A stretch of 64,000 nucleotides of DNA from Klebsiella pneumoniae. GTDB taxonomy: Bacteria; Myxococcota_A; UBA796; GCA-2862545. Location of the stretch: the NCBI GenBank assembly GCA_945861065.1, contig CAMASI010000004.1:1-64000 (forward strand), read 5' to 3'. Both the position numbers and the translations under genes were made by a program. Below are positions 2,090 through 10,726 of this stretch, one piece after another (the first letter of the stretch is position 1; each line of letters begins with the position of its first letter). The notes below the pieces were generated by a model. That model did no database searches. It had not been told where the DNA came from and was given only the letters and a program-made list of their open reading frames with translations.

Positions 2090-2530
2090 TTAATGGGGGC
2101 CGGTGTCATCGATCCAGGGGCCCTGCGTTTCGCTCGATAAACACGAAGTATTCCGAAGGGCTTCTAGGAGGGGGTCGCAACAGGCCGGCGTGTCCTCGCA
2201 TGAACCCTTCGTCCACGGGTCATCACGGTATGCGGGATCAGTGCACGTATACGACACTGAGGCGCACAACCCATCCGTCGTGACGAAGCTGAGGTGGCCG
2301 CCGCCGTCGAGCACGCAGTCGCTCTGCTGACACGCCCATTCGTGCCAGTATTCAGCCGGACGCAGAAACGTTCGCTTTTCATGGCAGAGCCGATCGGCGC
2401 TTGTGTCCACGACCGAAAGTTCAACGGGCACGAGGCCGTCCACAACAGGGACCTGGCATGCCCCCGGCTCGGAGGCGATCACCCCACTTGCCGGCACGCA
2501 GCCAGCAGCAGCCAGTGCCCAGCGAATCAC
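2090..2530 (-). CDS. Cysteine-rich putative lipoprotein
   Basis: 146 residues starting at GTG. The N-terminus MIRWALAAAGCVPASG is a short hydrophobic stretch with a lipobox (AAGC), so the protein is probably an outer-membrane-anchored lipoprotein. The mature part has many cysteines (for example SCEDTPACCDPLLEALRNTSC), suggesting disulfides outside the cytoplasm. No known domain is recognised. The GTG start overlaps the TGA of the preceding S8-peptidase gene by four bases (GTGA), so it was probably cotranscribed and translationally coupled with that now frame-broken gene. Confidence 0.7.
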   Translation of the reverse strand: MIRWALAAAGCVPASGVIASEPGACQVPVVDGLVPVELSVVDTSADRLCHEKRTFLRPAEYWHEWACQQSDCVLDGGGHLSFVTTDGLCASVSYTCTDPAYRDDPWTKGSCEDTPACCDPLLEALRNTSCLSSETQGPWIDDTGPH

Positions 2531-4759
2531 TCCGGCCTCACTTGAAATGCCATCAGCGGGCGCTCCGCCACTTCCCGATCGTTGTCCTCGGCAAGTGCAG
2601 CGAAGTAAACCCGATGGCTGAACGGGCCGCAGCCCTCACCGGATGGAGACGAAATGTCACGTCCGATCAAGCGAATCCCGTACTCATACGCTCCCGGTTC
2701 ATCGAGGTAGAGCCGCTGCCGGTTGTCATCCGAATTGGCGGTGACCACGGGGGACCAGACACCAGCGACTTTTCGAATGATCTGTAGGTCGACGAAGTCG
2801 TGCACGCCGCCGTCGTCCCACCTGCGGTCATACCACCACGTCACCACCTTGATGAAATCCTCGTCGCCCGACAGCGCCGCTGGTCCACCGGCAACCGACA
2901 ATGGGATTTCGGTAATGCCACCGAAAGGAACACAGGCCCAACCCGTCTTGTACCGCGCAGGTGGATCCATCCATGCCCCCTCGAAGCGCCGCAAATGCAG
3001 CTTCCCTGCGCCCGTCAGTCCGTCAAAACCGTTCACCATTAGCGCTCCGCCCTCGTCATGTCGACTGCCCATCAGCAGCATGTTCGTATAGAGAAGACCG
3101 GGGTCGTCAATCATCGCAGGATTGGAAAAAGTATTGTAGAAGAAATCCCTGAATAACTGCGCCGCCCCAGTGATTACAGGCGCCGCGGCGCTTGTACAAC
3201 AAAAACTGCTTGGCCCTGTGCCCACGCCAGGCCACTCCACGCCGTACTCGTAGTGGAAACCCAGCGAATCCAATGGCCACATGTAGTACGGGTACGCATA
3301 TTCAAGCATGGACGGCGCCATGAGTCCTATGATCGTGCGGCCGGCGCCCTCTGCGGAAGTACCGCCGCGCGAAGTTCCGAGGTAGAACTCTTCGGTATGA
3401 GTCGTGCTATTGATCTGATATGCGCCCACGGGAAACACACCTAATGCAGCCCCTGGGCTACCCATATTGCAATCTCCTGGCGTAGCAAATCCGTCGTTTT
3501 GCCCGCGGATTTGAATATTGCGAGACCACTTTCGTAAAGAGCGTTGTAATCCTTGGAATGCGAATCGTTTCCGCGACAAAGCGTATCGGAGGTGTAGCTG
3601 AAGGACATGTTGGCGACTCGAATGCGCTGAAGCAGAACCGAAAATGATAAGTGCGACATTGATGTCGTGCCGTAACCCTGCACCAGCGCGCCTCGTGCCA
3701 ATCCGGAACGCATTCGGCGCTGAAGCGGGTCAGAAATGAGCGGGTCCTGCCCAAGGGAGATATCGCCACCAATGATGGACGCGACAGCGGTCGAATGCTC
3801 ATTCGCCTCCTTGGGGGTAATGAATGGGTCCGGCACAAACGGGAGGAGACACATGCCCGGAGGCAACGCCGGGTCGTATGGGCAGTTCGTGACGCGGGTC
3901 GCGCCGGCCCCGTCACGGAAACCCTGGTGACCCACCAGGATTTTGTCCCCGTTGGGCTCCAGAACCGCCGTGTGCTCGAAAGCGCTTACAAAGCCGTCAA
4001 GCCCGTACTCCGTGAATTGCCATGACTGCAAAAGATCCTCAAGTTCATAGCCATCCACGTCTCCCCCATCGACGTACCACGCGAATCCTGCGTCGTCCGA
4101 GCCGGATTCCCCCGCACTGACAGACTGTACGTTGTCAGTGAACTCAAGCGCGGCAACTGCGTCTGCGGGTAGCTCGGCCCGAAGTGTTCCTGCGAGCCCA
4201 AACCGGGACAACACGCGTCCGCCAAGGATCCAGATATCCTCTTCCAGCTGATCCAGGGCCGGTGCCGTCGACGCCTCTCGGTCGGCAATCCATTTCTCCC
4301 TGACGGCATACGCGTCTGAGATCGTGACCACCTCTCCTCGGGCGGCAGCGAGCAGTAGGGCGCCGTCGGCTGTGGTCCCGTCGTCGAACGCAGATCGCGC
4401 GACCGCGATTTCAACTTCCATCCAGGCATCTGGCGCTAAATCGGCGGCCGCGCTCAGTACCTGTCCCATGTTCGGCGCGCCAAAGTACACCACCTCTTGA
4501 ACTGCCCTCAGGTCGGGGTCGATGGCGGGCGTCATCTCGGCGCCTGTGGCAACGTGTGCAGTCCCATCAGGTGACAAGTCGATACCTGCGAAAAACACCA
4601 ACCTCGCCAGCTCCTCAGGGCCGACATCACCTCCCAAAGCGACGGAACTCAGCAGTTCCTGGACGTCGCTCTGCGTCACGGGGTGACGGTACAACTCGTC
4701 GAGCGCCACACCGGACGCGCCGGCATTAGCGAAGAGAGTGAGAGAGAGAGAGAGAGCAT
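2527..4759 (-). pseudogene. Subtilase-like (S8) peptidase gene with two frame breaks
   Basis: Two consecutive frames together make one S8-type protein of about 740 residues. The upstream frame has EHSTAVASIIGG (catalytic His region, normally HGTxVA) and GLAIFKSAGK. The downstream frame continues NDGFATPGDCNMGSPG and has CCTSAAAPVITGAAQLF, the catalytic Ser region (normally GTSxAxP). I could not find a convincing catalytic Asp. The join is at four A's (3497-3500), where one extra A would give SAG-K-NDGF. The natural start is probably ATG at 4759, preceded by GGAG, but it is out of frame with the rest because of a CT repeat in the signal-peptide codons. An upstream GTG at 4790 is in frame but lacks a ribosome site. 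Either this is a pseudogene, a phase-variable gene, or it carries sequence errors. Confidence 0.75.
4738..4757 (-). repeat. (CT)8 simple repeat in peptidase signal sequence
   Basis: On the coding (minus) strand, ATGCTCTCTCTCTCTC runs directly from the probable start codon at 4759. Loss of one CT unit would place this ATG in frame and give MLSLSLTLFANA, a good signal peptide, fused to the peptidase. In the present state the ATG frame stops after about 27 codons. Dinucleotide tracts at the start of surface-protein genes are the classic substrate of slipped-strand phase variation. Confidence 0.7.
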
Positions 4760-4790
4760 TGATGTCTCCGCGCTGCGGTAAGTCTAGCAC

Positions 4791-5493
4791 GCAACCGCGT
4801 CAGCGCCCTTCGCGGACCAGATTTTTTTTGGACGGGTCCATGTGTGTACGTCGTAGGTGCCGGTCGGCCGGGCGGAATCACTTGAGGTGGCGATTGCATC
4901 GGGATCGGGCGGAACGGGGCGATGGGTCTCGGGGCCCGTGACGTTCGCGCTGCGGACGGCCTCTCTGCGGTCTCTGGTGCGCCAGGCCAAGCCTGGCTGA
5001 TCTCGTCAACTGTGACGTGTTGACCATGTAAATCACTTGCTCGACATGAAGACGGCGGCGCCATGGACGAGGGCAACCTCCCCGTGGGAGCCGCGGAGGA
5101 CCACCGCGAGGGGGTCGCTCGCCGAAAGGCGGGGGTCGAAGGCGCGGGCCGCAAGCACTTGAACCCGATTCGGCCTCGTTACGAACGTTGGAAGTGGCCT
5201 TCCTCCCAGAGAATGGGCGGCTGCCACCGGCTGTGAAGACAGCGAGACGTGCAACAGCCGGGCTTGGACGAACCCGCTGCGCGGGGGCCCTGCTGTCGTA
5301 GTGCGAGCGGTACGGGCTCCCGGGTTGCGCCGGCCGACCTGATGTGATCCGAGCGCCCGGCGTCGGCCGCCGCTCTGCACCGCCAAGGACGGGTTGGACG
5401 TCGCGTGCAGACGGGCGACTCCGGCTGTGCCGCGTCCAAACTTAACTTTACCGGGCGCGGCAGGAGACGGCGAGGGGACACATTCATGACCGT
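4791..5493. other. Gene-free stretch upstream of recombinase remnant
   Basis: About 700 GC-rich bases with no gene I can support. Open frames exist on both strands but give Arg/Pro/Ala-rich, low-complexity translations without recognisable motifs. An eight-T run lies near 4829. It probably contains the promoter and leader of the peptidase gene near 4791, plus remnants associated with the recombinase insertion. Confidence 0.4.
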
Positions 5494-6078
5494 ATGGCCG
5501 CCGACCTTGTACTGGCCGGCCGCTCGGAGTCGACCCGCAAGAGCTACCTGCGCTGTGCGCGGGCCTTCGTCAAGCACTTTATGCGGTCGCCGGAGGACCT
5601 CGGTGAGGCGGAGGTGCGCAGCTAACTTTTGCATTTACGCGCTCGGAAGCTGTCTGTGGGCCACGATCTGAAGCATCTCGCCGCGTTGAAGGTGCTGTTC
5701 AAGGCGCTGCGTCGACCCGAGGTGACTGCGAACATCCCGTGGCCACGCATGCCGCGCCGTCGGCCCGACATCCCCACGCGCGAGCAAGTGGCGGTTGTGC
5801 TGGCCGCAGCGTCATCGCCTTACTGGCGCGCCTTTCTCACGACCGCCTACGCCGGTGGCCTGCGTCGCATGGAGGTCGCGGCGTTGCGCGTTCAGGACGT
5901 CGACAGCAAGGCCGGCCTCCTTCGCATCGCGTGCGGCAAGGGCGGCAAGGCGCGGGAGGTCATGCTCGACCCGACGCTGCTCGCCGTGTTTCGCGCCCAC
6001 TGGCGCGAGCAGAACCTCGTCGGCCCCTGGCTCTTCCCGGCCCGCACGCGACGCGGCGCTTGGGCCGATCGCGCCGGT
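5494..6078 (+). pseudogene. Tyrosine recombinase (phage-integrase type), truncated
   Basis: From ATG 5494 the frame reads an N-terminal SAM-like core-binding domain (STRKSYLRCARAFVKHF, SPEDLGEAEVR), is interrupted by TAA at 5623-5625, and continues in the same frame as HLRARKLSVGHDLKHLAALK and then the catalytic domain: AYAGGLRRMEVAALRVQDVD with the first catalytic Arg, and CGKGGKAREVMLDPTLL with the catalytic Lys region. The frame runs into the duplicated intron 3' end at 6067, so the HxxR, His/Trp and Tyr motifs are lost. It resembles the small integrases found beside IS91-type transposases; no transposase remains here. Non-functional. Confidence 0.85.
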
Positions 6079-6213
6079 CGGAGGCCGACATGGCTGACCT
6101 GTGCAACGCCCATGGCGACGTCCGGGTACGCCGGATGCGGGAAATCTGCACGTCCGGTGTGATGGGGGCGGGGGGTGTCCGGGCTCGGCCCGGCCCCTCC
6201 GCTACCCTACCGC
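6067..6213 (+). repeat. Group II intron 3' end with domain V, copy 2
   Basis: A near-exact direct copy of 1577-1725, with the same domain-V-like hairpin (CCGGA 6131-6135 pairing with TCCGG 6153-6157) and the same end CCGCTACCCTACC. Here no reverse transcriptase precedes it; instead it abuts the truncated recombinase. It may be a 5'-truncated retrotransposition product or the scar of a recombination between intron copies. Confidence 0.65.
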
Positions 6214-6871: not shown

Positions 6872-7767
6872 TTCTGGCCCTGGCCTGTGGTCCGTCCGGG
6901 GTGGAAACCGGAATCGATGTGCCGTGGGACTGCGCGGCGCTTCCAACGGCCCCGTTTGAGCAGGAGTCCTTTCCGGCCATTGCCAACGAGGACATTACGT
7001 TCGACGCTTCGGGCAACCTCGTAGGCGCAGATGTGTTCGCGAACCTATGGCGAACGGACCTTTCCGGCGCGTCCAGCATCGTGCTTCCCAATAGCGGGGT
7101 TACGGCGGGGTTAAGGCTGATGCCCTGGGACGGGACGTTGGCGTCCGCCCAGTATGCGACCAACGCGATTTATCGAATCGACCCCATTTCAGGGGCAAGG
7201 GAGTTGTTGGTCGCCGGACTCAGCACGCCGAGTGGAATTGAAATTGGCCCCGACGAATCCATCTGGTTCGGCGAACTCAACGGCGATCGGATCCAGCGCT
7301 ATCATGTGCCCACGGGCACGCTATTTGTGGTGGCCGAGGGCTTGCTCCGCCCCAATGGGCTGACCTTCAACCGGGACTTCGACCAACTTTATGTGGCAGC
7401 GACGGATGAGAGCCGCATTTATGTGATCGATATCGACCCAGTGTCTTTCGAGGCTGTCGGAGAACCAAGAGTATTTGCGGAAAATGCTGGTGAAGGAATC
7501 GACGGATTGGAGGTCGATGCGTGCGGAAACGTGTACGCGGCTTGGTGGTCCCAGGCCCGCATCGATCGGTATGGACCCGATGGGTCGGGACCGGAACCGA
7601 TTGCATTCTTCCCAGAGGCGAATTTCGCCTTAGGCAATTTTGCCTGGGGCGACGTTACACATGGATGGGACCCGGAGACGATTTTCATCGTTGAAACGGG
7701 CCTAGGTACCGTGCGATCCCTTCGACTGGGCGTCGGCGGAAAGACTCGATCGGCTACAGCACGGTGA
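6865..7767 (+). CDS. SMP-30/gluconolactonase-like beta-propeller lipoprotein
   Basis: 300 residues. TTG 6865 is the only possible start after an in-frame stop at 6814. The N-terminus [12 protein letters not shown] contains a lipobox (LALAC) but is unusually short. The rest reads as repeated propeller blades in the style of the SMP-30/gluconolactonase/NHL superfamily: [58 protein letters not shown]. Enzyme activity is not assured; many secreted propellers of this type are uncharacterised. It converges with the next gene on the minus strand, the ends overlapping by 14 bases. Confidence 0.7.
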
Positions 7768-8440
7768 AGTTGGAATGGCGGTAGGTCAATCCAGGCGTCG
7801 TGAATTCTGCTTCCGTGGACCAATCGCCCGCGTCGCCGTGGGTCTCATGAAACGTTCGTTCTTCGACTCGGCTCAGGGCTGGTACGACAAGAACACCGCC
7901 AAACGCACAATCTGCGGCCCAACCAAACCCTAGCCCACTGGGGTCGACAAGATCTGCCGCGGAGACGAGGCAATCCGGGTTTATGTCCACGAGCACATCG
8001 ACGGCGCACGGATTCTCGGCAACGCCGTACACATCGAAGCCGGGCGCACAATCCGTTTCACAGGTACCGCCTGCGTCACGGACTTCGATGAACAGGCGGA
8101 CGTCGGACGTGAGGCCGCCGCCGGGACACGAGACCGGCACGCCAGTATCAGCGTCGGCATCTGAATCTGCGTCAGCGTCCGAATCGGAGTCGGAGTCGGA
8201 GTCGGCGTCGCTGTCTGAATCGCTGTCTGAATCGCTGTCTGAATCGCTGTCTGAATCGCTGTCGGAATCACTGTCACTGTCCGAATCGCTGTCGGCGTCG
8301 GAATCTGCATCGGTGTCGGTGTCACTTTCGGACAACTGGGGTTCTGTCGGTGCCTCCGGCTCGGGCGCAGGTGGCTCCGTATAGACATCGACAGGGGGCT
8401 CTTTCGTCGTACATGCGAACAGCGTCAAGGTGAGCAGCAT
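7754..8440 (-). CDS. Lipoprotein with long Ser-Asp repeat
   Basis: 228 residues from ATG 8440, chosen because AGGAGG lies six bases upstream and because the N-terminus [14 protein letters not shown] is then a perfect lipoprotein signal (lipobox LFAC). After a Pro/Glu-rich stretch comes about 55 residues of alternating Ser and Asp/Ala-Asp, reminiscent of the SD stalks of staphylococcal surface proteins. The C-terminal half has six cysteines (for example [15 protein letters not shown]) and is unrecognised. A stalk carrying a disulfide-stabilised head away from the membrane is the likely arrangement. Confidence 0.75.
8150..8335 (-). repeat. Ser-Asp coding repeat, partly 12-bp tandem
   Basis: Low-complexity run of 6-bp units encoding SD. 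In the middle (about 8212-8265) the plus strand shows perfect 12-base units GTCTGAATCGCT repeated four times, which points to recent slippage or recombination and to probable length variation between strains. Confidence 0.8.
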
Positions 8441-8549
8441 CAAATCCTCCTGCATCGCCGATCTGCAACCGGTGTGCCAGCGCAAGGGCCGAGTCGGCTG
8501 CTTGATCCTAATGGGTGGCGGTCGCGGGGCTCGGACACGAACGTCGCGC

Positions 8550-9455
8550 TTATCCGCGTGCCAACAAACCGAATCTCAGCCCACCACCGGAGCTGATGTA
8601 CTGGGTCCTCCCAGTTCGTTCGAGAATGCCGTCGAGGATGATTGCACCGGCAAGCAACCAGTCGGCGCGCTCAGGGGCCGCAGGCGCCAACGCGCGGCGC
8701 TGCTCTGGCGTGGCTGTGAGGAGGCGATCGACGAAGTGGGCCAAGTGCTCACGGGTGACGGCAGTGCCGTGGATTGCGGCGCCGTCCCAGGCCGCCAGAC
8801 CGAGCACCATGGTTGCTAGCGTGGTGGCGGTTCCGGCAACACCCACGACCACGGCGGGGCGAGGGTCGAACACGATGCGCTGCAACGCCATGTCTAGGTG
8901 AACGCGAAGGCGCGTGAGGCCTCCTGGGTCGTACAATCCAGGTTCCCGACCGAATAGGAACTTCTCGGTGCTACGAAGCGTTCCAACTTCGATGGACTCG
9001 CTGACGACGACGTGTTCTCCCTCCCCCAACACGATTTCGGTCGAACCGGCGCCGACGTCGATCACCAGCAGGGGTCCGCTGGGCAGTAAAAGGTCTCGAA
9101 CGGCGCCGAGCCAGGTCAGACGGGCTTCTTCGGCCCCCGAGGCGATTCGGACCCGAAGCCCGAGACTGCGCTGGACGCGCGATATCCACGTCGGGGCATT
9201 CATCGCGCGCCGGGCGCCGCTGGTGGCGACCGCTTTGACGGACCAGGGTTCGACGGAGAACTTTTTTGCCGTAATGACGTAATCGGCGAGCACAGCGTCG
9301 GCGGCCCTGAGCAAATCCGGGGCGAACAAACCGCGGTCGCCAAGTCCCTTCCCGAGGCCCACCACGCGCGCCTCGTCGTGCAGGACGGTGCCTTCGGCGT
9401 CGCAGACGGTCAGCAGAATAGAATTGCTGCCGATATCTATGGCGGCCCGATTCAT
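8550..9455 (-). CDS. ppx: Exopolyphosphatase/GppA-type phosphatase
   Basis: 301 residues from ATG 9455. An ASKHA-fold Ppx/GppA phosphatase: [14 protein letters not shown] is the phosphate-1 motif, [13 protein letters not shown] and [16 protein letters not shown] the second phosphate-binding region, and [13 protein letters not shown] the third. The family hydrolyses inorganic polyphosphate and/or pppGpp in the cytoplasm; the short form lacks the C-terminal HD-like domain of E. coli Ppx. The start overlaps the tolB stop as ATGA, so translation should be coupled to tolB. It is the last gene of the Tol operon. Confidence 0.88.
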
Positions 9456-10726
9456 GGAAGCCACTTTGGTTGGCTCCACCCTCCTGTTCGCGTGACGGGG
9501 GTCTGGTGGTTTCCGTCCGCGGTCGTCACCCAGATCTCCGACCTACCGGATCGCGTGGACGAGAACAGCAGGTACATGCCATCAGGACTCCAGGCCGGGT
9601 CCTCATTGTCTCCCTGGCCCTGCGTCAGCCTGCGGAGGTTCCGGCCATCCACGTCTGCGACGTAGATGTCAAAACCACCGGCCTCCCGGCTCACAAACGC
9701 GACTTGGGTTCCGTCCGGGGAAATCGTCGGGTCACCGTTATAGTCCCCGGCGAAGGAGATGCGCTTCACTTCGCCCGAGGCCATATTTCGAAGGTAGACT
9801 TGGCTTCCGCCCGAGCGCTCTGAGGCAAATGCCAACAATTGGTCGCCTGGCCCGAGGTCTGGCGACACGTCAATGCCACCTCCCTTGGTCAACTGTTGAA
9901 TCGTTGCGCCCGTCTTTCCATCGATCAGGAATAAGTCAATCTCCGTGTCAATCGTGCGAGCGACGACCAATCGCGTGGAATCGGACGTAAATTCGGGGCT
10001 GATATTGACCCCCGTGATGCCAGAGACGATGCGTGTGCGGCCGCTGGGGAGGTCCTTAACGTACACGTCGGCATTGCCTTTCCGGTACGACGTCCAGGCG
10101 ATTTGCCGGCCATCCGCAGCGACGTTTGGCGACAGGTTGATGCTGCCATTCCGCGTCACGGGCGCGGCGTTCCTTCCGTCCAAGTCAAGGAGGTAGATTT
10201 CTTTGTTACCCCCCGAACTGCCGACGGCGGCAATGCGCCCAAGAAATAGGGCATCGCGGCCGGTGACCGCTTTGACGACAGCGCCTGCGACCGCGTGTCC
10301 GATGGCCCTGGGTTGCCGGCCATCCGCACGAAATCGTTTTGATAGTAGAAGTTCACCTGTCGCGGCGTAATACAAATACAGGTCGCCGCAGGCCCGCGGC
10401 CCGCCAGGGTCGCACGCGGCATGCCCGGGCGGTAAATAGCGCGTCTTCACCAATACCGTGGTGTTCACCATTTTCCACGGGTCCCAGCTAAAACTTCCGG
10501 GCTCCACCCCTTTGCCCTGTTCGATAAATGAATTGGGATCGATCAGCGAAAAGTAACCGGACATGTCGAGGTCGTGGTACAATGCGTCCCACATTTCGCC
10601 CGCACGGCCGTCGGGATCGCCGCCCGGCGTTTGTGGTAGGGGCACAGCGACGGGAAGATCGGCACGACCCGGCACCTCGATGAGAATTTGTGCGACGGCA
10701 AACGAGGCCATCAAGAGCGCGATCAT
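9452..10726 (-). CDS. tolB: TolB periplasmic beta-propeller
   Basis: 424 residues, the normal TolB length. N-terminal signal peptide (MIALLMASFAVAQ), an N-terminal alpha/beta domain with the YFSLIDPNSFIEQ stretch, then a six-bladed propeller with the WD40-like PD40 repeats typical of TolB (VAADGRQIAWTSYRKGN, ISPDGTQVAFVSREAGG, WSPDGMYLLFSSTRSG). TolB works in the periplasm with Pal and the TolQRA energised complex in outer-membrane constriction and integrity. Pal is not encoded in this window. Nine bases separate it from the TolA-like gene upstream. Confidence 0.95.
   Translation of the reverse strand: MIALLMASFAVAQILIEVPGRADLPVAVPLPQTPGGDPDGRAGEMWDALYHDLDMSGYFSLIDPNSFIEQGKGVEPGSFSWDPWKMVNTTVLVKTRYLPPGHAACDPGGPRACGDLYLYYAATGELLLSKRFRADGRQPRAIGHAVAGAVVKAVTGRDALFLGRIAAVGSSGGNKEIYLLDLDGRNAAPVTRNGSINLSPNVAADGRQIAWTSYRKGNADVYVKDLPSGRTRIVSGITGVNISPEFTSDSTRLVVARTIDTEIDLFLIDGKTGATIQQLTKGGGIDVSPDLGPGDQLLAFASERSGGSQVYLRNMASGEVKRISFAGDYNGDPTISPDGTQVAFVSREAGGFDIYVADVDGRNLRRLTQGQGDNEDPAWSPDGMYLLFSSTRSGRSEIWVTTADGNHQTPVTRTGGWSQPKWLP

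Follow-up and report, generated by a model that had tools for sequence, protein, structure and literature searches.

Start region and CT tract of the protease gene

The locus described here raises the question of whether a dinucleotide repeat directly behind a start codon switches a secreted protease on and off. The repeat, (CT)8, lies on the minus strand of a 64,000-nucleotide stretch of DNA (positions 1 to 64,000 of contig CAMASI010000004.1; here called the window), at the 5' end of a gene for a subtilase-like protein. We assign a probability of roughly 0.63 to the reading that the tract is a site of slipped-strand mispairing in the leader of a secreted protease, that it would confer translational phase variation, and that the sequenced copy is OFF and possibly decaying. 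CT units would be gained or lost at replication, their number would set the frame behind the ATG with its ribosome site (7 or 10 units open, others closed), and single cells of a population would secrete the protease or not.

Read directly on the minus strand, a ribosome-site-like GGAG (4769-4766) is followed by six bases and the start codon ATG (4759-4757), and the tract (4756-4741), with its non-triplet unit, abuts the ATG, as the initial annotation had described. That annotation had also placed the ATG out of frame with the peptidase, and this was borne out: with 8 units, the ATG frame is 27 codons long and ends at a stop, and the assembled allele is therefore OFF. Frames were computed for all unit numbers from 5 to 11. 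With 7 units, the leader MLSLSLTLFANA opens and the ATG frame reads MLSLSLTLFANAG, remaining open to codon 438 (438 codons in all); 10 units give 440 open codons, and 5, 6, 9, or 11 units give frames of fewer than 30 codons. The open leader had been called a textbook signal peptide. A leader does open at 7 units, but it has only 12 residues and no positive n-region, and it falls narrowly below the stricter hydrophobicity cut (1.68 versus 1.8). A comparably short leader, MIALLMASFAVA, belongs to the TolB-like protein at 9452-10726; both this protein and the one at 7754-8485 have very short leaders without a positive n-region, like that of the protease. A run of eight A residues on the minus strand (4822-4829; T8 on the plus strand) lies ~63 bases upstream of the ATG.

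The tract would be incidental, and the eight-unit allele expressed, if translation started at the GTG at 4788-4790, which is upstream and in frame. Frame 0 of the minus strand is indeed open from this GTG (4790) through the tract to 3441. Such a start is barely probable: no sequence resembling a Shine-Dalgarno or ribosome site lies near the GTG, the n-region would be atypical, and gain or loss of CT units would still break the GTG frame, so that the tract would stay a mutable site. In addition, in three genomes with leader tracts (G005, G027, and G039), the strong ribosome site also belongs to an out-of-frame ATG.

Since TCT makes up 8% of the serine codons and CTC 31% of the leucine codons in the window, LSLSL written as a CT run is a DNA repeat and not ordinary coding, and codon bias was rejected as the cause of the run. 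Its own assembly (4.4 Mb, 147 contigs) has no other (CT)8, and the tract is the sole dinucleotide run of at least 6 units in 464 kb of the genome. These 464 kb hold four non-triplet tandem repeats in total, which led us to reject a genome-wide repeat habit, and among them only the CT tract has a ribosome-site ATG before it and a long frame after it. Elsewhere in the same genome, a heptamer, ATGGCTA, is repeated 15 times near the start of contig G000:C13 (L118, 213-317).

A second frameshift and the surroundings of the gene

Loss of one CT unit had been expected to fuse the leader to the protein. As given above, 7 units do open the leader and 438 codons, but a second frameshift, which the initial annotation overlooked, bars the whole protease. 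The peptidase frame that starts at the tract runs out at 3441; from ~3500 to 2527, the rest of the protein is read in a different frame. Piece 1 (3502-4740, minus strand, open frame 0) comprises the rest of the leader, a propeptide-like part, and the catalytic domain up to the asparagine region, as placed by alignment A1. The reading frame changes at CAAAAC (3496-3501), and piece 2 (2527-3500, minus strand) comprises the conserved serine (codon 3192-3190) and the C-terminal domain, with the stop at 2529-2527. The family profile matches piece 1 at its positions 4-413 and piece 2 at positions 413-721, breaking at 3498. Because the conserved active-site serine sits in piece 2, beyond the second frameshift, loss of one CT unit would still leave this allele without a whole protease; the 7-unit version of the assembled allele would yield a secreted 438-residue fragment lacking the serine and not a working protease. 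Programmed frameshifting at 3496-3501 was considered and rejected, as C AAA AC is not a classical slippery heptamer.

Decayed mobile elements surround the gene. There are a reverse-transcriptase fragment (844-1347), a fragment of the phage-integrase family with an in-frame TAA and a truncated 3' end (5480-6162), and two ends of group II introns (1638-1715 and 6126-6210). Pieces of such introns are scattered over 726-1725, 4958-5265, and 6059-6213 of the window, some of them similar to contig ends of another genome of the set (G002), and two intron ends (1569-1725 and 6059-6213) are 97% identical.

The second lesion and the decayed elements around the gene mean that the window copy may be decaying. 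They are also the basis for a further explanation, namely, that the gene is simply dead, with two independent frameshifts acquired amid broken mobile elements (the reverse-transcriptase, integrase, and group II intron remnants), the tract being the place where one indel happened to fall. Against this, both pieces, the two shifts aside, retain a coding signature and the conserved motifs, and we consider a dead pseudogene rather unlikely in the light of the relatives described below. Two apparent indels in one gene of a draft assembly of 147 contigs could instead be sequencing or assembly errors, in which case the true genome would have seven CT units, no shift at 3496-3501, and no switching. 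However, the neighboring genes are of full length: the profiles of two DUF3015 proteins and one Lnb-type protein are each covered throughout. We find error as an account of the entire locus quite improbable, also in view of the tracts in other genomes (see below). For the lesion at 3496-3501 taken singly, two readings apply: either the sequenced copy is starting to decay while OFF, or this lesion is an assembly error.

Assignment to the subtilase-like proteins

A 10-member family profile finds subtilases in the PDB (best E value, 9.8e-8) as well as the subtilisin BPN' prosegment, which places the family by sequence profile with the S8 subtilases (KP-43 and SubHal, subtilisin type). The Pfam S8 model likewise scores 35.9 bits in one family member (L005), above the cut-off of 21.8, whereas the N-terminal part from the window taken alone scores 14.3, below the same cut-off. 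In the family alignment (A1), one histidine (H332) is invariant, and both the TSxATP-type serine and the asparagine motif are conserved. The family differs from S8 subtilases in that the Asp-His-Ser catalytic triad is not present as such: an invariant glutamate, E278, occupies the place of aspartate. By the S8 motif, we take E278 of row 1 of alignment A1 (window 3959-3957, minus strand) to be at the position of the catalytic aspartate, and it is possibly part of an unusual triad. Because of this glutamate, we name the predicted window protein subtilase-like.

Leader repeats across the protease family

Of 71 genomes of the class, 21 gave matches when searched with alignment A1, and the 5' ends of the 21 member loci were inspected, ten of them also base by base. 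The family is also carried by contig CAMAXZ010000004.1 (L055) of a metagenome-assembled genome, whose record is labelled Klebsiella pneumoniae and is probably mislabelled. A non-triplet repeat right behind the start codon and inside the leader was found in seven of the 21 members, with unit lengths of 2, 7, and 1 (CT, heptamer, poly-G, and poly-C). Six of the seven are out of phase with the protein body: (CT)8 in the window, (TC)8 in G005:C151, a heptamer repeated five times in G005:C192, another heptamer repeated six times in G041, C11 in G002, and G9 in G039. The seventh, a third heptamer repeated six times in G046, is in phase via the first of two ATGs in different frames. One further lesion is present in the window gene and in G041 (in the latter also a second frameshift), and the other four of the six OFF genes are otherwise fully open, with 730, 762, 868, and 633 codons in the neighboring phase, the last reaching the contig end. 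When the rest of the 21 family genes (~29 kb) was searched by the same criteria, one repeat was found. In G002, a second copy nearby has no poly-C and is intact; pN and pS between the OFF and intact copies are 0.26 and 0.72. Since G or C runs of 9 to 10 bases are common in G005 (349 kb; L127-L146), unlike in the window's own genome (G000), the CT tracts or the heptamers carry more weight as evidence than those of poly-G and poly-C.

These relatives bear on whether the window gene is a plain pseudogene. Some family members do have stops or shifts outside repeats: G060 is shifted at GGGGG, and an in-frame TAG interrupts both G045 and G005:C65. Decay would, however, not be expected to give several repeat kinds at one place in the leader, nor does it fit four OFF relatives free of any other lesion. 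Phase variation also has points against it, namely, the second frameshift in the window and in G041, the decayed elements nearby, the 14 of 21 members with no leader repeat, and the occurrence of only one such site in 464 kb of the window's own genome. In the untranslated leader of G052, one of these 14 members, lies a tandem array whose period, judged by eye, is ~14 bases.

Tract differences between copies and sister species

At the window locus, the unit number is known from one allele, and variation was seen between copies elsewhere (G027, G162, and G152/G127). Two copies in G027, whose 361 aligned bases around the tract are 89% identical, have 8 and 9 units, and a third copy has 8; all three are OFF. 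Two copies in G162 are 95% identical over 610 bases, one being in frame and the other out of frame. Within one genus, two copies are in frame in G152 and one is out of frame in G127, the proteins being 63% identical. For the two long OFF copies of G027, dN is 0.18 and dS is 0.53; together with the pN and pS of the G002 pair, these values indicate that the OFF genes are under constraint.

The initial annotation had proposed counting units in related genomes, and the relatives proved to be mixed in frame class, to carry repeats of several types at one position of one protease family, and to include duplicates that differ in unit number. Sites of the same type with several repeat kinds, mixed phases, and differing tracts in duplicates strongly support, at the level of sequence comparison, switching as a class. 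The switching proposed for the window gene itself is thus supported in part: the relatives strongly support slippage at secretion leaders in this phylum, but in the assembled copy a switch to an intact protease by one CT unit would be blocked by the second frameshift.

Comparison with known phase-variable genes

Two systems offer the closest layouts. The account of Helicobacter pylori sabA in PMC2715451 gives 7 or 10 CT units as in frame and 6, 8, or 9 as out of frame, and oipA is described as a second CT-repeat case (PMC10564699). Like these genes, as described there, the window gene carries its CT tract in the 5' coding part, and it shares the 7-or-10 arithmetic of sabA. It differs in encoding a secreted subtilase-like protease and not an outer-membrane adhesin, in coming from an uncultured environmental lineage, in having a second frameshift in the allele, and in that variation within its population is presumed from relatives. 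In Neisseria, CTCTT repeats in the leader-coding sequence open and close the opa frame according to PMC3745409, and pilC has poly-G leader repeats as described in PMC13190605. The likeness to these descriptions lies in the repeat inside the leader-coding sequence, G039 having G9 in its leader; the repeat units and the protein family differ, and opa and pilC are compared here by layout and not by switching rate. A feature typical of sabA and opa is thus found in the window: a non-triplet tandem repeat lies in the 5' coding part of a gene for a putative secreted protein, behind a ribosome-site ATG. As to the number of units, 7 or 10 would open the leader and 438 to 440 codons, but the second shift keeps the full protease closed in this allele.

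Colony phase variation of Myxococcus xanthus is on record, at least in the part of the literature represented by PMC3986340. A literature search pairing phase-variable genes with Myxococcota gave no match in the library searched, and the match examined for slipped-strand mispairing in this group dealt with Neisseria pilC.

CT tracts in the order and the phylum

Of 63 genomes of the order, 18 contain tracts of (CT)7 or longer. There are 40 distinct tracts, of which 8 in G029 were left out, the tract-bearing sequence there looking foreign, and 32 were read. Sorted by eye, 11 of the 32 follow an ATG and fall within a leader of secretion or lipoprotein type: four in frame (G015, G022, G023, and G062) and seven out of frame (G000, G005, G049, G039, and three in G027). 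The other 21, also by eye, are outside leaders; of these, five (four in G041, one in G038) are within a repeated element. A mechanical rule, by which a ribosome-site ATG and an open frame were sought on the CT strand and on the GA strand, was satisfied by 12 of 32 tracts on the CT strand and by 2 of 32 on the GA strand. Adding a hydrophobic leader and codon-position support left 7 on the CT strand (2 ON and 5 OFF) versus 0 on the GA strand. The two sortings differ in that L089 and L037 satisfy the mechanical rule and are absent from the by-eye set, the reverse being true of L101, L103, and L105. Dispersed CT repeats independent of genes were not supported, given the strand asymmetry of 12 to 2 (of 32).

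In the phylum, (CT)8 was found in 57 of the 377 genomes drawn, the order included. Outside the order, 29 loci (31 tracts) were read; thirty had been given, one being G005 again. Nine of the 31 tracts are in leaders, 4 ON and 5 OFF as sorted by eye, and the mechanical rule gave 6 on the CT strand versus 3 on the GA strand. Over the order and the rest of the phylum, leader tracts number 20, of which 8 are in frame; this is near the one third that free drift of the phase would give. Whether OFF alleles are in excess one unit above the open class was considered and left aside, as there were too few. Leader tracts that are out of frame turn up in many separate genomes, in part on very long contigs (G140:C1, for example), which argues against assembly error as the account of the window tract. 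Because of this family and phylum context, slippage switching of secretion leaders is the best explanation for the window tract, qualified for this copy by the second lesion.

Most known cases of phase variation through leader repeats come from pathogens that live bound to a host, and there it is explained by immune escape. We regard it as evenly balanced whether an uncultured, presumably free-living lineage, and the phylum more widely, keeps a repeat-switched secretome, in which CT, heptamer, poly-G, and poly-C repeats would have arisen independently in the leaders of exported proteins, proteases and lipoproteins among them, so that the set of costly shared enzymes secreted would differ at random from cell to cell within one population. 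Should an environmental phylum indeed switch its secreted proteases and lipoproteins in this way, a benefit other than immune escape would be needed, and division of labor, cheater control, and phage avoidance would be candidates. For annotation, genes with an assembled OFF allele may be called pseudogenes or be given wrong starts.

The CT/GA tracts in the repeated sequence of G041 (L033, L090, L091, and L092) and G038 (L031) have 8 to 11 units. They lie 23 to 25 bases before the ATG of opposite-strand proteins with similar N termini and could be a repeat-tuned translation signal.
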